DNA from: Terriglobales bacterium
GTDB lineage: Bacteria; Acidobacteriota; Terriglobia; Terriglobales; Acidobacteriaceae
Direction: 5' to 3'
Assembly (NCBI GenBank): GCA_030038475.1
Contig: JASHOU010000052.1
Span: 1 to 32,575 of the forward strand
Length of the DNA stretch: 32,575 bases
A program made the translations under genes and the position numbers. Positions within the stretch are counted from its first letter, which is position 1, and the number at the start of each line of letters is the position of its first letter. Positions 17,786-31,485 of the stretch are shown piece after piece. The notes under the pieces were generated by a model that did no database searches, was not told where the DNA came from, and was given only the letters and a program-made list of their open reading frames with translations.

Positions 17786-18976
17786 ATGAACGTTCTGGGC
17801 GAGCTGTTAGAGCTGGCGGAGAACGAGAAGGCAGAGCGAGGCTTGGCGCACACTCCGGCGGAGATCGCCCAGCAGCCGGCCACGTGGGAGTCAACATTTG
17901 CACTGTTCCGGCGGCAGCGCGCGGAGATCCAGGAATTTCTGACGACGGCGGGAGTTGGGGCTGCGGATTTTGGTTTGCGTCCGGCGGTTGTTTTAATCGG
18001 GGCGGGAACGTCGGACTATGTGGGGCAATCGCTCGTTTACCTTTTGCGGCGGATGTGGCAATGCGACGTGGCAGCGGTTCCGAGCACCGATTTGGTGACC
18101 CATGCCGAAGAACTGATTTTGCCGTGGAGGCGCCAACTCTGGATTTCGTTTTCCCGGTCGGGCGACAGTCCGGAAGGCGTTGCGGTACTGCGGGAAGCTT
18201 TGGAGAAGCGGCCCAATGTCGTGCACCTGATTGTCTGTTGTAACGCCAAGGGGCGCATGTTGAGCGAAATTGCGGGGCATCCAAGGGCGCTTGGCATTTG
18301 CTTGGACGATGCGGTGAACGATCGCGGGCTGGCCATGACCAGCTCATTTACCAATATGACATTGTTTGGGCAGTGTCTGGCGCATGTTGGGGATTTGGGC
18401 CGATACGAAGAAATACTCGGGGAACTGACTGCGGCGGGGCAGAGCTTTTTGCCGGTGGCGGCGGAGTGCGCGGCAGAATTGGCAACCATGCCATTCGCCA
18501 AGGCGTGCATGGTGGGGTCGGGCGCGCTGCGCGCAGTGGCGCGGGAGTCGGCGCTGAAGGTTCTGGAATTGACGGCAGGCAAAACGCCAACGATGTCGGA
18601 ATCGGCGCTGGGCTTGCGACATGGGCCGATGGCGGCACTGGATAAAGATACCCTGTTCGTATCTTTTCTTTCGGGAAGCGAACGAGTGCAGAAATTTGAG
18701 ATGGACCTGATGGAAGAAATCGGTGCGAAGCGGCTGGTGCGCAGCCGGGTTGCGGTGGGCGGGGATTTGCCTTCGCGCGCGAAGGCTGTGGCGGAGTATT
18801 GGCTCGCGCCGGCTACGCCGCTGAGAGTGGCGGACGATTACCGTCCGCTGGTGGATGTGATGTTTGGACAACTGCTGGGATTGTTTTTTTCGCTGCGGTG
18901 GAAGCTGCGTCCGGATTCGCCGAGCCCTAATGGGGCGATCAGCCGCGTGGTGCAGAACGTCAATATTCATGCGTGA
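17786..18976 (+). CDS. agaS: AgaS-like SIS-domain sugar isomerase / galactosamine-6-phosphate deaminase
   Basis: This 396-residue cytoplasmic protein has two SIS (sugar isomerase) domains. SIS 1 carries LIGAGTSDYVGQSL (about 70-83) and SFSRSGDSPEG (121-131). SIS 2 carries VGSGALRAVARESALKVLEL from about residue 243. AgaS deaminates and isomerises D-galactosamine-6-phosphate to D-tagatose-6-phosphate in amino-sugar breakdown. Length and domain order fit AgaS better than the longer GlmS, which has an additional glutaminase domain. The GAGGA next to the ATG at 17786 is very close, and AAAGG further up may serve instead. It is divergent from the agaR-like regulator and followed by a PfkB kinase gene. 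Confidence 0.85.
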   Translation: MNVLGELLELAENEKAERGLAHTPAEIAQQPATWESTFALFRRQRAEIQEFLTTAGVGAADFGLRPAVVLIGAGTSDYVGQSLVYLLRRMWQCDVAAVPSTDLVTHAEELILPWRRQLWISFSRSGDSPEGVAVLREALEKRPNVVHLIVCCNAKGRMLSEIAGHPRALGICLDDAVNDRGLAMTSSFTNMTLFGQCLAHVGDLGRYEEILGELTAAGQSFLPVAAECAAELATMPFAKACMVGSGALRAVARESALKVLELTAGKTPTMSESALGLRHGPMAALDKDTLFVSFLSGSERVQKFEMDLMEEIGAKRLVRSRVAVGGDLPSRAKAVAEYWLAPATPLRVADDYRPLVDVMFGQLLGLFFSLRWKLRPDSPSPNGAISRVVQNVNIHA

Positions 18977-19035
18977 ATTCATGCTAGGGAGGCTAATGAA
19001 GACCAACTCCGCGCGACGGGAAGGGAAGATTTCCC

Positions 19036-20025
19036 ATGCATGAGGTTGCGGTCGTGGGGGAGCTCAACCTGGATTTGATTCTTTACGGTTTGCCGAGAGA
19101 CCTGGCGCTGGACCGGGAATCACTGGCGAGCGGGTTGGCGCTGACGCTGGGAAGTTCGTCGGCGATCTTTGCGCATAATCTGGCGAAGCTTGGAACGATG
19201 GTCGGATTTGTTTCAAAGATCGGAGGAGATCCGCTGGGGAAAATTGCTTTGGAGAAGCTGGCGTCGGCCGGCGTGGAGGTGAGCTGCGTCAGGCAGGGTG
19301 GGAAGACGGCGACCGGGCTCACGGTGGTGCTGCCCTATTTGCGGCATCGGTACATTTTGACCTACCCGGGGACGATGTTTGAGATGCAGTACTCGGATAT
19401 CGACACGAGCTATGTAAACAAGGCTCGGCATCTGCATCTCTCGTCATTTTTTCTGCACCGGGCGCTGCGGCCGAGGATTGTGGATTTGTTCCGGCAGGCG
19501 AAGGCGGCGGGGCTGACAACGTCGCTCGATACGAACGACGATCCGGAAGACAAGTGGAGCGCGGACTTGATCGAGGTTCTGAAATATGTGGATCTTTTTT
19601 TTCCGAACGACCGGGAGGCCAAAAGGATCGCGCACACCGAAGACCTTTCGCAGGCGCTGAACGAGTTGGCGGCCATGGTCAAGGTGGTGGCGGTGAAACG
19701 CGGCGCAGTCTCGGCGATTTGCCGGCGGGGCGATGAGCAGTGGAGCGTAGCGCCTCCGAAGGTGAAGGTGGTGGATGACGTGGGCGCGGGAGACACGTTT
19801 GCCGCGGGCTTTGTGCACCTTTATCTGCGCGGCGCCCCGCTGGAGGATTGCCTGGCGTTCGCCAACATTGCGGCTGCGTATTCGGTCACGAAAGAGGGCG
19901 GTACGGAGGCGTTCCGTGATGGGCTGGGACTGGCAAATTTTATCCGGCAGCAGTGGAACCTGATGGGTCGCGGACCGCTGCCGGCGGGAGCTACGGCTGG
20001 CGGCGGGAAGAAGAAGGAAGCGTGA
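19036..20025 (+). CDS. PfkB-family sugar kinase (candidate tagatose-6-phosphate kinase)
   Basis: This is a 329-residue ribokinase-fold kinase. The N-terminal sugar-binding text (VVGELNLDLILYG, then KIGGDPLGKIALEKLASAGV) and the C-terminal PfkB signature DDVGAGDTFAAGF (247-259, catalytic base Asp253) are both intact. Position after agaS suggests it phosphorylates tagatose-6-phosphate to the 1,6-bisphosphate, the substrate of the aldolase to which GatZ-like proteins belong. That role is inferred; PfkB kinases have many substrates. The ATG at 19036 follows GGGAAG by 7 nt. The last 20 residues are a Gly/Lys-rich tail (GGGKKKEA) outside the fold. Confidence 0.82.
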   Translation: MHEVAVVGELNLDLILYGLPRDLALDRESLASGLALTLGSSSAIFAHNLAKLGTMVGFVSKIGGDPLGKIALEKLASAGVEVSCVRQGGKTATGLTVVLPYLRHRYILTYPGTMFEMQYSDIDTSYVNKARHLHLSSFFLHRALRPRIVDLFRQAKAAGLTTSLDTNDDPEDKWSADLIEVLKYVDLFFPNDREAKRIAHTEDLSQALNELAAMVKVVAVKRGAVSAICRRGDEQWSVAPPKVKVVDDVGAGDTFAAGFVHLYLRGAPLEDCLAFANIAAAYSVTKEGGTEAFRDGLGLANFIRQQWNLMGRGPLPAGATAGGGKKKEA

Positions 20026-20356: not shown

Positions 20357-23300
20357 ATGAACCGGTTTCTGCGCGAGTGTTGTCCTCGAAGCTCACAATA
20401 CTTTTTCCGAGTTCGGGCGCTGTTCCTGGTGCTTGCAGTGATCGGGTTGACCGACCCGCCAAGCATTGCGCAAAAGGACACGGGCGGAATCACCGGAATT
20501 GTCACCGATTCGAGCGGCGCAGTGGTGAGCGGAGCGAAAATCACCGTTACCGATGTGGATCGCGGCACCACGATTACAACCACTACGAATGCACAGGGTG
20601 AATACGCAGCGAGTCCGCTAAAAGTGGGGCGGTATAGCATCACGGTCGAAAAGGGCGGTTTCAAGAAGGAGGTGTTGGGGCCGGTCAAGGTTGATGTGCA
20701 GGAGCGGCCGGCGGTGAACGCGCAACTGAAGGTTGGGAGTATTTCCGAGACGATGACAGTGACGACGGAAGGCCCGCAGCTTGAGACCGACACTTCCGAA
20801 CTCGGGCAGGTGCAGGATAGCCATACGATTGAAACGCTTCCGTTGAACGGGCGGAACTACGCACAACTGGCGTTGCTGAGCGCGGGCGTGGGACCGAGCG
20901 AGCCGGGTTCGCGCGTCGAAACAACATTTGGATTCAGTTCCAATGGGGCGCGATCATTGCAGAACAATTTTCAGCTCGATGGGATCGACAACAATTCCGA
21001 TCTGGGCGATGTTTTGAACGGCAGCGCGTATGTGATTCAACCTTCGGTTGACGCCATTGCGGAATTCAAAGTGCAGACCAACGCATATAGCGCCGAATTT
21101 GGACGCGGCAACGGCGCGGTGATGAACGCCGTGATCAAGTCGGGCACGAACCAATTTCACGGCGATGTTTATGAATTTCTGCGCAACGATAAACTCGATG
21201 CGAGCAATGCGTTCGATGAATTCGGACGACAAGGGTACCAGCAGAATCAATTCGGAGCGACTTTTGGCGGACCGATTATCAGGAACCGAACTTTCTTTTT
21301 TGGCGATTATGAGGGTCTGAGAATCCGTCAGGCTTTGCCGCAACTGAGTCTAGTGCCGACGCCGGCCGAGATTGGAGGAGATTTTTCGTCGTTTTTAACC
21401 ACCACCCAGGCGATGGCGGTGGACATGAACGGCAATCCAACCAATCAGGTGGCGCTGGATTGCAACGGGAACCCCACGTATGTAGGTGAAATATTCAACA
21501 CTTACATGACACAGGTTTCGGGTTTGAATCCGGACGGCTATTGCGGAGTGCCGATCGGAACCGATGCGCACGGCAACCCGACGAACAACTTTACGAGAAA
21601 TGCGGGATTGAACACGGCGATCGATCCGCTGGCAGCGCGGCTATCGGCGCTGTTTCCGACGCCGAATGTGAGCATCAACGGTTCCAACTTTCTGGCGGAG
21701 CCGAAGAGAACCACCGATCAGAACAATTTTGATATCCGGATCGATCACACCCTTACGCAACACGACGCCTTGTTTGGACGATTCAGTTACGAAAGCCAGC
21801 CGAGCTTTATTCCGTCTCCATTCAACAATGCGCTCGACGGGGGCGCATTCCAGGATGGGTATCAGGACGATTCCTATCGCAGCGTGGCGATCAGCGAGAC
21901 CCACACGTTCTCGCCGAACGTGATCAATGAGTTGCGATTCGGTTATAACCGGATCAATTCGCATCGTTTTCAATTGAACTACAACACGAATGTGTCCGGG
22001 CAGCTGGGTTTTCCCGGAGTTCCGTTTGGACCGGGCTACCCCGACAATGGTGGCCTGCCGCAAATCACGATTGACGACGGGACGGCGACGATCGGCAGCT
22101 CGGGTTTTTTGCCGTCGATCGAAAAACAGAACGCGTTTGTGATCGACGAAAACCTGACCAAGGTGCATGGCCGGCATTCGATGAAATTCGGGACGGAGCT
22201 GCGTTTCATCGAGTTCACAATTTTTCAGCCGGCGGCGTCGCGAGGCACGATGGACTTTGCCAGCGATCTAACCGACAACGCGGCCGCTCCCACGACGGGC
22301 GGCGAGGCATACGCGACTTTTCTGCTGGGTATCACCGATGCCGCAACGATAACCAACATGCACAACGTCGACTATCATCGCGGCGACTACGCGTGGTTTG
22401 CCGAAGACGACATTCGCGCGACGCCGAGGTTGACCCTGAACCTGGGACTGCGCTATGAGCTGTTCACGACGGTGAAGGCGCGCTTCAACGAATTAGCCAA
22501 TTTTAATTTCGCCAACGATACGCTGGTGGTTCCTTCGGGCCAGCAGGCGCAATTGACTCCAACGCTGGCGGGCATTATTCCGATTGTACGAAATGGCACA
22601 CCGGGATTGATTAATCCGGACTTGAGAAATTTTGCGCCGCGTGTGGGGCTGGCTTATAAGCTCAGCGACAGCGCGGTTTTGCGCGCCGGCTACGGGATTT
22701 TTTACGGCGGCGAGGAGAACGGACCATTTTCCAACCCGAGTCCGGGTTTTAATCCTCCTTTTTTTGTTACCGAGAACTTTACGCAGCCTTGTGGATTGCC
22801 GGCGGCAAATCCCAATCCGAATCAGCCGAACTGCGCGGTGGTGGGGCCGGGAAACGTTCCTTTGAGTTCTTTGTCGCAGGGATTTCCTGCCAACTCGCTG
22901 GTGGATCCGAATACGCCGACTCTTTTTTCGGAAGACCCAAATTTGAAAACGCCGTTTACGCAGCAATGGCATTTGGGGATCCAGTACCAATTCCCGAGCG
23001 AGATGATGCTGGAAGTTTCTTATGCCGGGTCGCATGGAGAGGATCTGTTCGGGATGTACAACGGCAATCAGGCGCAACCCAATGTGATTTTCTGCACGAC
23101 CAACGGCAACACTCCGGAAAACTGCCCGACAGCGCCGCGGCGGCCGTTTCCCGCGGTTGACGGCCTGATCGACACGCTGCGCGCCAACGACTTTTCCAAT
23201 TACAACTCGCTGCAAGTGCATCTGGAAAAGAGGCTCACGCACGGATTGGAGTTTGGAGCCTCGTACACGTGGTCGCACGGGCTGGACGATGCCTCAAGTG

Positions 23301-23968
23301 CGAGTCTTGGTTCTTTGAACAATGGAGACTTCCGCAACCAACTGTATCCGTGGCTGGAGTATGGCAATGCGGACTTTGATGTGCGGCAGCGCGTCACCAT
23401 CAACTACGCCTATGAATTGCCGTTTGGCCGCGGGAAAATGCTTGGGGGAAATGCCAGCGGCGTTTTGAATCAGATTATCGGGAATTGGCAGGTGGCCGGC
23501 ATCACGACGGCGCAGACGGGCAACTGGTTCACGATCACCGATTCGATCACCAACGTTTCTACCAGCGACGGCGGCGGGACGGTTGGATATTACCAAGTGC
23601 GGCCGAACGTTGTGGGCAATCCGAACGGAAAGCCGTGCGTTCCGGGGACGCTCTTCAACACGTGCGCGTTCGTCGACAACTCCATCTATTTTACCTTTGG
23701 CAATGCGGGCAGGAACATCGTCCGTGGGCCGGGCTTGCAGGATTGGGATTTTTCGGTGTTCAAGATTTTTCCCATCAGCGAGGCGAAACACCTGGAGTTC
23801 AGATCGGAATTCTTCAACATCTGGAACCATGTAAACCCGTTGCTGGGGCCTACCGGCGCGATCAGCGAGGAGCCGGTGGCGGTCGAGTTCGGCACACCGG
23901 AGTTCGGGCAGGCGATCGCGGCGCGCGATCCGCGCTTCATTCAGTTCGCGCTGAAATTCTATTTCTGA
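20357..23968 (+). CDS. Oar-like TonB-dependent outer-membrane receptor
   Basis: This 1203-residue outer-membrane protein begins with a signal peptide (about 1-39, ending SIAQ). A carboxypeptidase-regulatory-like beta-sandwich (about 41-125, starting GGITGIVTDSSGAVVSGA) and a plug domain (about 140-260, with LPLNGRNYAQLALLSAGV and LDGIDNN) follow. The remainder is a 22-strand barrel ending in an aromatic residue (KFYF). Length and layout are those of the Oar-like family expanded in Acidobacteriota. No SusD-like lipoprotein follows, so it is not a classical Bacteroidetes SusCD pair. The ATG follows GAGG by 5 nt. Its promoter and a GAAAN-type operator upstream tie it to the galactosamine cluster, so import of oligosaccharides released by the GH36 enzyme is a reasonable inference. 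Confidence 0.92.
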   Translation: MNRFLRECCPRSSQYFFRVRALFLVLAVIGLTDPPSIAQKDTGGITGIVTDSSGAVVSGAKITVTDVDRGTTITTTTNAQGEYAASPLKVGRYSITVEKGGFKKEVLGPVKVDVQERPAVNAQLKVGSISETMTVTTEGPQLETDTSELGQVQDSHTIETLPLNGRNYAQLALLSAGVGPSEPGSRVETTFGFSSNGARSLQNNFQLDGIDNNSDLGDVLNGSAYVIQPSVDAIAEFKVQTNAYSAEFGRGNGAVMNAVIKSGTNQFHGDVYEFLRNDKLDASNAFDEFGRQGYQQNQFGATFGGPIIRNRTFFFGDYEGLRIRQALPQLSLVPTPAEIGGDFSSFLTTTQAMAVDMNGNPTNQVALDCNGNPTYVGEIFNTYMTQVSGLNPDGYCGVPIGTDAHGNPTNNFTRNAGLNTAIDPLAARLSALFPTPNVSINGSNFLAEPKRTTDQNNFDIRIDHTLTQHDALFGRFSYESQPSFIPSPFNNALDGGAFQDGYQDDSYRSVAISETHTFSPNVINELRFGYNRINSHRFQLNYNTNVSGQLGFPGVPFGPGYPDNGGLPQITIDDGTATIGSSGFLPSIEKQNAFVIDENLTKVHGRHSMKFGTELRFIEFTIFQPAASRGTMDFASDLTDNAAAPTTGGEAYATFLLGITDAATITNMHNVDYHRGDYAWFAEDDIRATPRLTLNLGLRYELFTTVKARFNELANFNFANDTLVVPSGQQAQLTPTLAGIIPIVRNGTPGLINPDLRNFAPRVGLAYKLSDSAVLRAGYGIFYGGEENGPFSNPSPGFNPPFFVTENFTQPCGLPAANPNPNQPNCAVVGPGNVPLSSLSQGFPANSLVDPNTPTLFSEDPNLKTPFTQQWHLGIQYQFPSEMMLEVSYAGSHGEDLFGMYNGNQAQPNVIFCTTNGNTPENCPTAPRRPFPAVDGLIDTLRANDFSNYNSLQVHLEKRLTHGLEFGASYTWSHGLDDASSASLGSLNNGDFRNQLYPWLEYGNADFDVRQRVTINYAYELPFGRGKMLGGNASGVLNQIIGNWQVAGITTAQTGNWFTITDSITNVSTSDGGGTVGYYQVRPNVVGNPNGKPCVPGTLFNTCAFVDNSIYFTFGNAGRNIVRGPGLQDWDFSVFKIFPISEAKHLEFRSEFFNIWNHVNPLLGPTGAISEEPVAVEFGTPEFGQAIAARDPRFIQFALKFYF

Positions 23969-26243: not shown

Positions 26244-28532
26244 ATGCGACTGCTAAGCCTCCGTCTGATCATTTCGCTGATTGTGGGCATCACGCTCGTT
26301 TCGGCTGGTTTTTCCTACTATCAAATGTTGAGTGAAAAGCGCGCGCTGCGGATCGATCTGGAGCGGCGTTCGGAGATGCTGGGAGAAAGTCTTGCCGGCT
26401 ATATAGAGCGGGCGCTGGATGCGGGCGCGGATCAGGGCCTGCCGCAATTGGTGCAACAGTTCTCGAACCGCGAACACCTGCTGGGAGTTGCCATCTATAA
26501 CCCGGAGGGTGGGGTGGTTACGATGACCCCGCAACTGGGAAAGACGCTGAGCGCGACTCCTGCTGAGGTAACGAAGGCGATGGCGCAGAGCCGCGAAGAA
26601 AGTTCATTCGTCAAGCTCGAGACCATGCCGGTTCACATTCTTGCGCTGCCCATTCGCCAGCAGGACGAAGTCGTGGGCGGAGTGGCGGTGGTGCACGATG
26701 CGGGCTACATCCGGGAGCAAAGCCTGCTGGTTTGGCGGAAGAATTTTTTCCCGGTGCTGGCGCAGGTCGTTCTCATCGCATTCATCACGTTACTGATTGT
26801 GCGCTGGAGTATTGCCGGTCCGATTGCGCGTGCGGCGCTGTGGATGCACGGGCTGCGCACGGGAAAGATTTCCTTCCGCCAGGAGGTGCCGGATCTGGAA
26901 ATCTTTCGGCCGCTGGCGAGCGAAGTTGCGACCATGGCCGAGAGCCTAAGCCATGCGCGCAATGCCGCCGAAAACGAGGCGCGACTGCGGGAGGCAGCAG
27001 AATCGGTGTGGACGGCCGACAGGCTGGCGGTGCAGCTGCGCACGCGACTGGACGGCGGACATGTGTTTGTGGTCTCGAATCGTGAGCCTTACCAGCACGA
27101 GCGTGATGGGAAAGAACTGAAAGTGGTGGTTCCGCCGAGCGGGCTGGTGACGGCGCTGGAGCCGGTGCTCGACGCCTGCGACGGCACGTGGATCGCGCAC
27201 GGCAGTGGGACGGCCGACAGGGAAGTGGTGGATACGCAAGACAGGCTGCGGGTTCCGCCGGCCGATCCGCGATACTCATTGCGCAGAGTGTGGCTGAGCA
27301 AAAAAGAAGAGGAAGGTTACTACTACGGATTTGCCAACGAAGGGCTGTGGCCGCTGTGCCACATTGCGCACACGCGTCCGCTGTTTCGCGCCGAAGACTG
27401 GCAGTGTTACCAGGAGGTGAACCGCAAGTTCACGGATGCGGTCATCGAGGAAATCGAGCACGTAGAGAAACCGGTGGTGCTGGTGCAGGACTATCACTTT
27501 GCGCTGTTGCCACGGTTGATCAAGGAAAAACGGCCGGATGCGCGGGTGGCAATTTTCTGGCATATTCCGTGGCCGAATCCGGAGGCGTTTGGCATTTGCC
27601 CGTGGCAGCGCCAGCTGGTGGATGGTTTGCTCGGCGCCGACCTGATCGGATTCCACATTCAATCGCACTGCAACAATTTTCTGGAGACGGTGGACCGCGT
27701 GGTCGAGTCGCGCGTGGATTGGGAACACTTTTCCGCGGTGCGCCAGGAGCATCGCACGATCGTGCGGCCTTTTCCCATCAGCGTCGCGTTTCCTGCCGAT
27801 GACGGAGAGCAGGACAACCCGCATGGGTTCAATTACCACGAACGCGTGGCTCTGCTGCGAAGCGTGGGCGTAGAGGCAATTTTTATGGGGGTTGGCGTCG
27901 ATCGCGTCGATTACACGAAGGGAATTCTGGAACGGTTCAAGGCCATCGAACGTTTCCTAGAAAAATGCCCGAGCTATCAGGGGAAGTTTACGTTCGTGCA
28001 GATCGGTGCGCCCAGTCGCACCCATATCAAGCGCTATCACGATCTGCTGGCGGAAGTGGAGAGCGAGAGTGAGCGCATCAATTGGCGCTTCCAGAGCGGC
28101 AAATGGAAGCCCATCGTGTTTTTGAAAAGGCAGCACAGCCATCGCGAAATCGAGCCCTATTACCGCGCCGCCGATCTCTGCCTGGTGACGTCGTTGCACG
28201 ATGGAATGAATCTGGTGGCGAAGGAATTTCTGGCGGCGCGCAACGACGAACAGGGCGTGCTCATCCTGAGCCGGTTCACCGGCGCGGCGCGCGAATTGCG
28301 GGATGCGCTGCTGGTGAATCCTTACGACGTTGAGCAAACTGCCGATGCCATCCGTGCGGCTTTGGAGATGGAGCCGGAAGACAAGCGGTTGCGCATGCAG
28401 CGTATGCGGAGAGTCATCAAGGAACACAACATTTATCGCTGGGCCGGGAACCTGATCACCGAGCTTTGCGAGCTGCGTTTGGAAGTGCCGGAAGAGGCGC
28501 AGGAGAAGCGGCGTGCAGGTGCGTTCGTATGA
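26244..28532 (+). CDS. otsA: Membrane sensor fused to trehalose-6-phosphate synthase (GT20)
   Basis: This is a 762-residue fusion. Residues 1-250 look like a chemoreceptor or histidine-kinase input module: a transmembrane helix (7-26), a periplasmic domain of about 140 residues, a second helix (168-188) and a HAMP-like stretch (about 189-245). Residues 272-745 are a complete OtsA domain: VVSNREPY (276-283), [32 protein letters not shown] with the catalytic Arg and Lys, and [11 protein letters not shown]. OtsA makes trehalose-6-phosphate from UDP-glucose and glucose-6-phosphate and is normally a soluble protein of about 470 residues. The fusion puts the enzyme at the membrane and perhaps under direct control of a periplasmic signal. 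The stop overlaps otsB by 4 bp (ATGA). Confidence 0.9.
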
Positions 28533-29416
28533 TTTCGAAATTTGCGCAACCTCTGGAAACTGGAGACTGCCAGCCGCAGGAGAGCAACGCATTGAGACCA
28601 GAACTGCAATCCCAGCTAACGCCATTTCTGCAAACTCTTGCGCAATCGGCGGAGGCGGCGCTGTTGCTCGATTACGATGGAACGCTGGCACCTTTTCAAG
28701 TTCATGCGGAGCGCGATAAGGCCTTTCCGTATCCTGGAGTGGCACACATTGTGCAAGAAATCGTGCGCCACGGGCGGACTCGAGTCATAGTTATTTCGGG
28801 GCGCGATGCGCGGGATCTGATTCCGCTGCTCAACGTTCGGCCTCGGCCGGAAGTGTGGGGAATTCATGGGTTGCAGCGCCTGCGAACCAATGGCAGCGCG
28901 GAAATGCTGCGCCTCGATGCGCGAACGCTGGTTGGATTGTCGGATGCCGATCGCTGGCTGGGCTATCAGGAATTGCGTTCTGTGGCGGAATTGAAGGCGG
29001 GAAGCATTGCGGTGCATTGGCGCGGATTGACGGCGATTGAGGCGGAGGATCTGCGATCGCGGGTGATGCTGGGCTGGGGGCCGATTGCCGAATACAGCGG
29101 GCTCGATCTGTTGCAATTTGATGGAGGAGTAGAGATTCGCGCAGCGGAGGCCGATAAGGGCGAGGCGGTGCGCAGCCTGCTGAATGAAATCGGCCCGGAG
29201 ACGGCGGTAGCTTATCTGGGCGACGACAGCAGCGACGAATCTGCATTTAAGGCGCTTGGGAGCCGCGGCCTGAGTGTGCTGGTGCGGCCGGTGTGGCGGG
29301 AGACGAATGCGCAAATGTGGTTGAAACCGCCGGAGGAACTTCTGGATTTTCTCGGCCTCTGGCTGAAAGCGCGCGGCAGGGCGGCGCGGCAAAGGGCAAT
29401 GCGGCCCGGGCGGTGA
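28529..29416 (+). CDS. otsB: Trehalose-6-phosphate phosphatase
   Basis: This 295-residue HAD-superfamily phosphatase converts trehalose-6-phosphate to trehalose. The nucleophile motif is LLLDYDGTLAPF (Asp48, Asp50), followed by VISGR (motif II region), the cap domain, and LGDDSSDESAFKAL (about 230-243, motif IV). The ATG at 28529 overlaps the otsA stop, so the two are translationally coupled; an upstream in-frame start at 28466 would lie deep inside otsA and is unlikely. The first 25 residues vary in the family. It completes the OtsA-OtsB route in this operon. Confidence 0.92.
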   Translation: MISKFAQPLETGDCQPQESNALRPELQSQLTPFLQTLAQSAEAALLLDYDGTLAPFQVHAERDKAFPYPGVAHIVQEIVRHGRTRVIVISGRDARDLIPLLNVRPRPEVWGIHGLQRLRTNGSAEMLRLDARTLVGLSDADRWLGYQELRSVAELKAGSIAVHWRGLTAIEAEDLRSRVMLGWGPIAEYSGLDLLQFDGGVEIRAAEADKGEAVRSLLNEIGPETAVAYLGDDSSDESAFKALGSRGLSVLVRPVWRETNAQMWLKPPEELLDFLGLWLKARGRAARQRAMRPGR

Positions 29417-29420
29417 ATGG

Positions 29421-30101
29421 ATGAGCAGTGCAGCGACTATCGCGCCGGCACGGACGCCGGTGAAACCGTTCTACTTCAATACCTCGGCCCATCTGTTGCG
29501 GATCACGACGCAGAAGGCGAATACGCTGGCCGAGTTTTTGGAAGCTTTGCGCGTGTGCCCGGACGACTCTATTTTTCAACACACCTTTCGCACGCTGCAG
29601 GAGCACCACTTTATACGCGAAGGATTTTCGAACGATTTTGCGCACTGGGCGCTGGCTGCGTGCAACCAGCCCGGCCTGGCGGAACAGTTGGCCAATGTGG
29701 ATGTGCGGGAGTTCACCTCGCTCAGCGAGCTGCGAGAGCGCTTTGTTCAGCTAGTGGACAAGCACCTTGAACTCAACCCCTCCGATGGCGCGCGCGTGGC
29801 GGAGGAGACGTTTTACTTCTGCGCCGCCGACACCGTAATGATGCCAACGAATTTTGTGGCCGCGACGATGCAGGATTTTGCGAAGGGGTTGCGTGAGGTG
29901 AGCGTGCATTCGATTCATCATCATTTTATTGAGGCGCGACTGCGGCTGAAACTCATGTCCAACGATTTTTCGCAGTGGCTGCACGAGGATGTGGGTCTGA
30001 CCGATGCGGCGCGCGCTCTGAACCGGATCGATATCTATACGGCGACGCTCGAAGACGTGCGGCGACAGATCGTTCGAGTTGTAGAACGGGCGCTGGCGTG
30101 A
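29421..30101 (+). CDS. DUF5752-like protein of the trehalose operon
   Basis: This is a 226-residue soluble, mostly helical protein with no catalytic motif that I recognise. It begins FYFNTSAHLLRITTQKANTL and contains FQHTFRTLQEHHFIREGFSNDFAHWA and later HSIHHHFIEARLRL with several histidines. The text matches the DUF5752 family as I remember it, whose members lie beside trehalose-type glycosyltransferases. It starts 4 bp after otsB and ends 40 bp before the TreT-like gene, so it is part of the operon. A helper or regulatory role in trehalose synthesis is an inference from position only. Confidence 0.6.
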   Translation: MSSAATIAPARTPVKPFYFNTSAHLLRITTQKANTLAEFLEALRVCPDDSIFQHTFRTLQEHHFIREGFSNDFAHWALAACNQPGLAEQLANVDVREFTSLSELRERFVQLVDKHLELNPSDGARVAEETFYFCAADTVMMPTNFVAATMQDFAKGLREVSVHSIHHHFIEARLRLKLMSNDFSQWLHEDVGLTDAARALNRIDIYTATLEDVRRQIVRVVERALA

Positions 30102-30141: not shown

Positions 30142-31485
30142 ATGAACCCAGCGAATTTGCAAACCAACACCGTGCCTATAGACAGCGCGCTCTCGGCGCA
30201 ACCTGCGCCTCGAAGCCCAGAGCGAAGAGCGGCTCCGCGACCGTGGCAGACGCCTCCAGCGCCAGTGCCTGCGCCACATCTCGACGACTACGAGTCTATC
30301 GTGGGCGCGGCTGAGCTAAGCGAATTGCGCTTTCTGGCTCGCGAACTTAAGGGAAAGACAGTGAAGATGGTGAACTCCACCGCGGTCGGTGGAGGCGTGG
30401 CGGAGATGCTGAATCGACTTGTCCCGCTTCTGAGCGAAGTCGAGGTTGCCACACATTGGGATGTGATTACGGGAGGGAACGATTTCTTCGAAGTGACCAA
30501 GGCGTTCCATAATGCGCTGCACGGCGCGCCCTATGAGCTGACGCGGGCAGCGCAGGAGATCTTCCTCGCTTATAACGAACAAAACCGGCAGCGCATGCAA
30601 TTCACCGAAGATACGGTGGTGATTCACGATCCGCAGCCTGCGGCGCTGATTGCTGCACGCAAGGATAGAGAGCCGCAGGCGAACTGGATCTGGCGCTGCC
30701 ACATTGACCTGTCAAATCCGAATCCGCAGGTTTGGGGATTTCTGCGGCCCTTCATCGAACAGTTCGATGTGGCGATTTTTTCTTCGCAGTCATTTGCGCG
30801 GCAGTTGCCGATCCGCCAGTACTTGTTTTATCCGTGCATCGACCCGCTTTCGGAGAAAAACAAGGAACTGGACGAAAGCGTGGTGCGGAAGACGTGCGAC
30901 GAATTCGGCATCGATCGCAGCCGGCCGATTGTGACGCAGGTGTCGCGTTTCGACCGGTTGAAGGATCCAGTGGGCGTCGTGCAGGCTTTCAAGATGGCGA
31001 GAAAATATGTCGATTGCCAGCTGGTGCTGGCGGGCGGCGGCGCCAGCGATGATCCCGAGGGAGCGGCCGTTTTAAAAGAGGTGCAGGAGGCGGCGGGCAA
31101 CGATCCCGACGTCATCATTCTTGATTTACCGCCTTGGTGTGCGCTGGAGATCAATGCGTTGCAGCGCGCTTCGACCATCGTGGTGCAAAAATCGATCAAA
31201 GAAGGTTTCGGGCTCACCGTGACCGAAGCGCTATGGAAAGGAAAACCGACGGTGGCGGGAGCCGTGGGCGGCATTCCCAACCAGATCATTCATAAGCTCA
31301 CCGGCATGTTAGTTCATTCCATCGAAGGATGCGCCTACCAGATCCGCTACCTGCTGACGCATCCGGAGTTTGCGGCGCAACTGGGCAAGAACGGCCGCGA
31401 ACATGTTAAAGAAAATTTTCTCATGACAACCAATGTACGGCGCTGGCTGTTGCTGCTTCGGCTGTTGCAAAACCGAACAAGGTGA
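30142..31485 (+). CDS. treT: TreT-type trehalose synthase (GT4 glycosyltransferase)
   Basis: This 447-residue protein matches trehalose glycosyltransferring synthase along its length: VNSTAVGGGVAEMLNRLVPL (about 76-95), GNDFFEVTKAFHNALHG, VIHDPQPAALI, WRCHIDLSNPNPQVWGF, and EGFGLTVTEALWKGKP near residue 355. TreT makes trehalose in one step from a nucleoside-diphosphate glucose and glucose and can run in reverse. The first 45 residues are Pro/Ala-rich and probably disordered, an addition to the roughly 410-residue archaeal enzymes. In the same operon as otsA and otsB it gives the cell a second route that needs no phosphatase. Confidence 0.88.
   Translation: MNPANLQTNTVPIDSALSAQPAPRSPERRAAPRPWQTPPAPVPAPHLDDYESIVGAAELSELRFLARELKGKTVKMVNSTAVGGGVAEMLNRLVPLLSEVEVATHWDVITGGNDFFEVTKAFHNALHGAPYELTRAAQEIFLAYNEQNRQRMQFTEDTVVIHDPQPAALIAARKDREPQANWIWRCHIDLSNPNPQVWGFLRPFIEQFDVAIFSSQSFARQLPIRQYLFYPCIDPLSEKNKELDESVVRKTCDEFGIDRSRPIVTQVSRFDRLKDPVGVVQAFKMARKYVDCQLVLAGGGASDDPEGAAVLKEVQEAAGNDPDVIILDLPPWCALEINALQRASTIVVQKSIKEGFGLTVTEALWKGKPTVAGAVGGIPNQIIHKLTGMLVHSIEGCAYQIRYLLTHPEFAAQLGKNGREHVKENFLMTTNVRRWLLLLRLLQNRTR

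Follow-up and report, generated by a model that had tools for sequence, protein, structure and literature searches.

The window analysed here is the whole of a 32,575-nt stretch of DNA from a Terriglobales soil bacterium (Acidobacteriaceae, Acidobacteriota; assembly GCA_030038475.1, contig JASHOU010000052.1, positions 1–32,575, forward strand). At 26244..28532 on its plus strand, which also carries the operon described below, lies one uninterrupted frame with no internal stops that encodes a 762-residue protein, sensor-otsA, in which a receptor module is fused to a trehalose-6-phosphate synthase of the GT20 glycosyltransferase family. The annotated start at 26244 is backed by an MR or MK kept at the first residues of most relatives. 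In order, the protein comprises a first membrane helix (TM1), a periplasmic single-Cache domain, a second membrane helix (TM2), a divergent HAMP-like linker, a coiled coil and the GT20 OtsA domain, and its N terminus is probably on the cytoplasmic side.

TM1 (about residues 6–28; 26259..26327) and TM2 (about residues 164–190; 26733..26813) were recognized by eye as hydrophobic stretches, within helices 2–59 and 154–206 of the structural models. Between them, the periplasmic single-Cache sensor (about residues 29–163; 26328..26732) was placed by a Pfam match to sCache_3_2 that is below cut-off and by superposition on the WalK sensor 4ywz. The HAMP-like AS1 helix (191–205) and a variable connector (206–218) occupy 26814..26897, marked by conserved P193 and R205 and by matches to HAMP chains; AS2, running into the coiled coil (219–255; 26898..27008), was defined by the length from P223 to W256 and a moderate heptad-like periodicity; and the catalytic domain (residues 256–745; 27009..28478) by Pfam, alignment and contact residues. 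In comparisons with five relatives, most nucleotide differences in the N-terminal module (N-module) fell at third codon positions, a bias somewhat weaker than that of OtsA (against locus L053, 67, 41 and 144 differences at the three positions in the N-module, and 74, 45 and 233 in OtsA); the N-module is therefore translated and under constraint at the protein level.

The same fusion was sought in other genomes and recurs in over ten phyla by record title. Within the window's phylum, 106 of 297 genomes gave a match at E ≤ 1e-20, and in 27 of the 297, at 30 places, the match began no later than query residue 30 and extended into OtsA; in genomes G169 and G192 it starts further along the query, yet the module is present (loci L028 and L026, respectively). 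Matches starting at residue 30 or earlier were also found in 40 of 145 Omnitrophota genomes (three with a match ending early towards the C end), 11 of 99 Elusimicrobiota and 4 of 247 Bacteroidota (centre genome included). Two GT20-clade peptide patterns (NEG[LM]...) gave at least 586 matches in genome contigs, of which the best 80 were retained, and the fusion or a shortened form is present in these 80 loci: 38 in Acidobacteriota, 10 in Elusimicrobiota, 8 in Omnitrophota, 4 in Nitrospirota, 3 each in Bacteroidota and Daviesiibacteriota, 2 in Rokuibacteriota, single loci in Verrucomicrobiota, Methylomirabilota, Myxococcota, Edwardsiibacteriota, Gemmatimonadota and Levyibacteriota, and 6 without a phylum, where phyla follow record titles of mostly metagenome assemblies and single placements may be wrong. 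The query matched 359 plasmid records, each over less than 80% of its length.

The alignment comprises 106 of 108 proteins, all distinct and retrieved through their similarity to a query that carries the sensor (the identical L089 and L096 were dropped, L091, with a wrong start, and the split L020 were excluded, and L001 duplicates L002). The N-module is partly missing in six of these, namely L013, L124 and L125 (no sensor), L085 (TM2 region) and L109 and L131 (contig end), and the N-module alignment holds 94 of the 106. The sequence-only reading had allowed that a sequencing error might have joined two genes. Such an artefact of sequencing or assembly has next to no chance of explaining the window, in which we found no sign of one, and it is rejected by the recurrence of the same junction in all 106 aligned proteins across many assemblies and phyla, including the named strain Niastella soli MAH-29 (716-kb contig) and an Elusimicrobiota record titled chromosome, complete genome (L126). 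The fusion claimed in that reading is thus confirmed, with one open frame joining N-module and OtsA in the window and in relatives across phyla. At one locus (L040; G074:C19 14604–16666), the N-module and OtsA occupy overlapping but separate frames of 375 and 473 residues, which may represent a frameshift or a natural split. Among the literature matches listed, judged by title and the start of the abstract and with subscription literature mostly uncovered, no sensor- or HAMP-fused OtsA was found, nor was literature on a Cache domain with trehalose-6-phosphate synthase.

Sensor-otsA is the first gene of an operon with three partners. Its stop overlaps the start of otsB, for trehalose-6-phosphate phosphatase (28529..29416), in the tetranucleotide ATGA at 28529–28532; with the frame scanned from 28571, otsB scored 55.5 bits for Trehalose_PPase and 73.7 bits for T6PP (cut-off 68.05). 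A DUF5752 protein (29421..30101; PF19027, 195.7 bits) and a TreT-like GT4 glycosyltransferase (30142..31485; PF21269, 185.9 bits) follow. Upstream of the operon lies a large outer-membrane beta-barrel protein with a carboxypeptidase-regulatory-like N-terminal domain (20357–23968; OMP_b-brl_4, 802 bits), and Pfam places a SIS-domain protein adjoining a PfkB-family sugar kinase at 17786–20025 on the plus strand. Neighbours were scored in 61 of the 80 named loci, those with at least 4 kb downstream, as same-strand genes within about 3.5 kb on either side: otsB was found at 36 of 61 loci, DUF5752 at 30 and TreT at 31, with all three at 21 and none at 16, detection being by profiles grown from the window's own genes, which may miss divergent copies. 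The DUF5752 and TreT-like GT4 genes co-occur near sensor-otsA, 30 of the 31 TreT loci carrying DUF5752; we found no literature on trehalose with DUF5752.

The catalytic half belongs to the GT20 family by a Pfam match (PF00982) that is far over cut-off (397.8 bits against 32.5) and near full-length, covering residues 274–741 and profile positions 3–471 of 473. The score with the NCBIfam OtsA equivalog TIGR02400 was 423.9 bits, under the cut-off of 564.85; we therefore file the protein as an OtsA-type GT20 synthase rather than as that equivalog, and for the same reason regard synthesis of trehalose-6-phosphate (T6P) by sensor-otsA as likely but not certain. Donor and acceptor contact residues of the Mycobacterium thermoresistibile OtsA, taken from PMC6879718, were mapped through alignment with solved OtsA chains, partly counted by eye. 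By this mapping, R280, Y360, D416, R554, K559, D653 and E661 are invariant in the 106 proteins and R592 is kept in 105, while the M. thermoresistibile Gln146 becomes His418 here (His in 101 proteins and Gln in 5), so the earlier statement that the OtsA motifs are intact holds for the substrate-contact residues, invariant or nearly so.

The missed equivalog cut-off could also be read to mean that this GT20 enzyme makes a related phosphate, for example glucosylglycerol-phosphate, and that the sensor controls another solute, and the NEGLWPLC motif, which differs from the two solved enzymes aligned, could be read likewise. We consider this very improbable, as the OtsA model outscores the glucosylglycerol-phosphate synthase model (423.9 against 312.9 bits), the residues contacting glucose-6-phosphate are kept and otsB is a frequent neighbour of the fused gene. 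In the window's genome, which is 98.4% complete, sensor-otsA is the one GT20 match; TreT has one match, inside the sensor-otsA operon, and TreY has none over cut-off.

In profile searches, sCache_3_2 (Pfam) aligned at residues 32–149 with 24.5 bits in the whole protein and 27.0 on the N-module, below the cut-off of 28.4, and the HAMP family PF00672 had no match in the window protein at E ≤ 1, which is why we write ‘HAMP-like’. Across the 94 aligned N-modules, Pfam matches at E ≤ 0.1 were to SMP_2 (33), sCache_3_2 (30), dCache_1 (15), dCache_3 (14) and PF00672 HAMP (12, best E 4.3e-5), the commonest thus being neither Cache nor HAMP. Models of the WalK kinase (E 4.5e-4 over 9–247; 18.9 bits against a cut-off of 725) and the MtrB kinase (E 3.9e-3 over 165–248; 16.2 bits against 450) matched weakly. 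No DHp or ATPase kinase domain was found, with Pfam at E ≤ 1 giving only GT20, other glycosyltransferase and Cache matches. When a profile of the family was compared with the PDB, all eight matches at E ≤ 0.1 (0.0061 to 0.097) were signalling proteins or HAMP domains: two histidine-kinase sensors and one GGDEF/EAL protein at the Cache position, and, at the HAMP position (E 0.03–0.1), two MCP I (Tsr) chains and three HAMP-type chains, Af1503-type included, one of which (2y20) is titled only ‘uncharacterized protein’. Among these matches, MCP I 8c5v aligned at 167–234 (E 0.031) and HAMP 2y21 at 188–237 (E 0.081). P193 is kept in 93 and R205 in 91 of the 106 proteins.

An AlphaFold model built from the 94 aligned N-modules (mean pLDDT 88.5) has a helix at 2–59, helices and strands of a Cache fold at 63–152, a helix at 154–206, a linker and a helix at 222–254; in the full-length model, pLDDT falls below 50 at 207–231 and 244–253, covering the connector and some of the coiled coil. 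The best PDB match of the N-module model was WalK 9a5d, itself an integrative model rather than a crystal structure, over residues 1–262 (Foldseek E 1.6e-11, TMq 0.77; superposition Z 16.6, rmsd 3.4 over 256 residues). The crystal structure of the WalK sensor, 4ywz, superposed with Z 16.3 and rmsd 2.3 over 135 residues, which assigns the predicted model to the single-Cache fold of WalK type, and Cache domains of other kinases and of chemoreceptors ranked next (Z 12–14), in a list that tests mainly residues 9–179 and covers the HAMP part by few rows. The sequence-only reading, which described a two-helix periplasmic sensor with a HAMP-like linker of the kind that serves signal input, was right in its anatomy: the two membrane helices are there, with a folded Cache domain between them in addition, and the predicted model matches WalK across the N-module, although PF00672 itself is unmatched here. 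Mean pairwise identity was 26.0% for the periplasmic part, 43.3% for AS2 plus coiled coil and 59.1% for OtsA (L013, L124, L125, L085, L109, L131 and L100 left out), a pattern of divergent sensor and conserved linker and enzyme like that of receptors with diverging specificity.

The linker joining sensor and enzyme is variable in one part and nearly fixed in another. The distance from R205 to P223, across the connector before AS2, ranged from 11 to 28 in the 106 proteins, while that from P223 to W256 was 33 in 90 proteins, 34 in 6, 26 in 5, 25 in 4 and 23 in 1. The ten short linkers are those of L022–L031, and those on the tree described below all fall in the second sensor clade; five of the ten are exactly seven residues, or one heptad, shorter, the other five being shorter by eight or ten, so that lengths 25, 23 and 34 (the last in 6 rows) correspond to no whole-heptad offset. 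W256, L261, N279 and R280 are invariant in the 106 aligned proteins. The hydrophobic periodicity is moderately heptad-like (best period 3.35; 119 of 5,000 shuffles were as strong), and E245 and R249 occupy core positions of the predicted coiled coil. A near-fixed length between AS2 and the enzyme, next to a variable connector, would be better predicted by a rigid, coupled helix than by a loose tether, and may reflect the need of a helix that transmits rotation or phase. The sensor-less forms L013, L124, L125 and L149 also keep the 33-residue spacing, and we hold the receptor reading slightly less firmly because of this.

At the end of the linker lies a possible internal start, a GTG at residue 255 (27006..27008) preceded by GGGAGG at 26989–26994. 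An internal start producing only soluble OtsA had been named in the sequence-only reading as what would overturn it. The gene might have two products, the receptor form from ATG 26244 and, from GTG 27006, a soluble OtsA of 508 residues like the stand-alone relatives. The duplex energy with the anti-Shine–Dalgarno sequence is −10.3 at GTG 27006, stronger than the −5.3 of the annotated start; four stand-alone forms (L139, L143, L145 and L146) have the first start codon of their open frame aligned with residue 255, and six homologues have ATG in that column. Yet a Shine–Dalgarno match this strong is to be expected from synonymous codon choice (0.159 for the window and 0.113 to 1.0 in the other eight tested), and only 17 of 106 homologues have a start-type codon in the column. 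Judged from sequence, the internal start may be considered a real possibility for this species; a dual-product gene seems improbable to us, and the internal start as source of the main product is unsupported by the Shine–Dalgarno energies and synonymous resampling.

We placed the sensor form on a quickly built tree of 116 OtsA domains, sampled through their likeness to a query with the sensor, in which 103 sensor rows had been thinned to 85 at 80% identity and from which L147 (cut), L148 (shortened sensor), L041, L047 and L051 were left out; 40 of its 113 inner branches are open, and its long branches (exchanger rows and L153) meet at the root. The sensor form is strongly clustered, requiring 8 changes against a shuffled mean of 26.7. 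In the main clade (84 rows; support 85, not starred), 78 rows have the sensor, five lack it but are membrane-anchored and one (L150) is unlabelled; none of those sampled is fully soluble. A second group, which is starred (99), holds seven sensor rows, L152 with a single anchor helix and L050 with no detected module, and the remaining soluble forms fall outside both groups. The tree fits either of two histories, in which the sensor module was gained early and then lost or was gained twice.

Six sensor-less rows are still anchored to the membrane, L013, L124 and L125 by a hairpin and L149, L151 and L152 by one helix, as judged by eye and hydropathy. They require six changes on the tree, at least five of them forced by starred branches, and would represent losses of the sensor. 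One of them (L152:3782–5596), on plasmid pAA02 of Aminobacter aminovorans, is a second-clade OtsA whose N terminus has a single hydrophobic helix but no sensor and whose annotation says only trehalose-6-phosphate synthase. A different membrane module, Na_H_Exchanger (PF00999), precedes the GT20 OtsA domain in one frame in seven of eight Acidobacteriota proteins checked with Pfam (L044:5795–9430, L045:5507–9055, L046:4086–6842 and, of the set L157–L161, the four L158–L161), whereas L157 gave only GT20 at a cut-off of 1e-5. OtsA domains of these eight proteins are 44–45% identical to that of the window. Membrane modules of quite different kinds have thus become fused to OtsA in Acidobacteriota.

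Because sensor-less anchored forms exist, the strongest rival to a receptor is anchoring alone, in which the N-module holds OtsA at the inner membrane (for example, beside an exporter or the machinery for envelope glycans) while activity is not under control of the Cache domain. The six rows lacking a sensor, with their five forced changes, and the unrelated exchanger module are consistent with this. Against it count the at least 123 residues that 101 of 106 proteins keep between the membrane helices (two of the other five are cut by a contig end, and all were sampled by a sensor-bearing query) and the near-fixed linker length, for which a pure anchor would have no need, though the sensor-less forms keep that too. 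On this evidence we regard anchoring alone as rather unlikely.

We think it somewhat probable that sensor-otsA is a transmembrane one-component receptor, with a biosynthetic trehalose-6-phosphate synthase as its cytoplasmic output. In such a receptor, an external state would be sensed by the periplasmic Cache domain of WalK type that the two membrane helices flank, and the change would travel through TM2, the divergent HAMP bundle and the coiled coil of near-fixed length, which would dimerize the enzyme and set the relative position of its two GT-B halves. T6P output would then go up or down without transcription, and the T6P would pass to OtsB, the product of the next, overlapping gene. Dimerization through the coiled coil, allosteric control and a signal from envelope or water stress are all parts that we infer. 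Weighing against the receptor reading are the missing PF00672 match in this protein, SMP_2 as the commonest match of the N-modules, the small share of HAMP residues in the fold comparison, the low pLDDT of connector and coiled coil, the moderate periodicity with E245 and R249 in the core, the linker lengths off the heptad, and the relatives that manage with membrane helices alone, by which anchoring might be enough. The mechanism of the sequence-only reading, in which trehalose synthesis is switched by an external signal, is accordingly plausible as a proposal, and its choice of osmotic stress or drying as that signal is a guess.

Accounts of how bacteria regulate trehalose synthesis usually centre on gene expression and on metabolites in the cytoplasm. 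In sensor-otsA, the input half of a receptor is part of the enzyme molecule, an arrangement that extends to more than ten phyla as judged from record titles. Were the module to gate activity, T6P synthesis could respond immediately to changes outside the cell, and the protein could serve as a single-protein reporter for what WalK-type Cache domains sense. The natural series of soluble, anchored, sensor-fused and exchanger-fused forms makes the question of gating directly testable. More tentatively, at a little under an even chance, we suggest that these proteins form an undescribed, widespread class of receptor enzymes in which a Cache domain gates synthesis of a protective sugar without transcription or second messengers, GT20 having been wired repeatedly to membrane modules (Cache receptor, bare anchor and Na+/H+ exchanger) as a switch from membrane state to osmolyte.

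Among known systems, soluble OtsA enzymes (E. coli 1gz5 and 1uqu; M. thermoresistibile 5jij) share the GT20 domain and its substrate-contact residues with sensor-otsA, but their chains of 456–487 residues align only from query residue 274–300 on and are without the N-module. Control of the M. thermoresistibile enzyme, as reported in PMC6879718, is by 2-oxoglutarate and 2-phosphoglycerate at a tetramer interface that is unconserved outside its group. S-helix linkers, as presented in PMC1592074, are likewise coiled coils between sensor and catalytic output, but have an ERT signature; the sensor-otsA linker consensus is without it (by eye, columns 223–261), and we rejected identity with the S-helix. 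The terms glycosyl, trehalose and OtsA were absent from the main text of PMC1592074.

WalK (YycG) resembles sensor-otsA in having TM1, a single extracytoplasmic Cache domain, TM2 and HAMP in the same order, with a like predicted fold, and differs in its output, which in sensor-otsA is GT20; across all 762 residues of sensor-otsA, Pfam detects neither a PAS nor a DHp nor a kinase domain. One-component proteins built as sensor, HAMP and output include diguanylate cyclases, adenylyl cyclases and PP2C phosphatases, whose outputs make second messengers or act on proteins. Sensor-otsA shares with them an input module and a helical linker to a cytoplasmic enzyme, but, unlike the cyclases and phosphatases, its output is a biosynthetic enzyme for a compatible solute. 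The sensor–HAMP–output kind is known, and OtsA is an unusual output for it.
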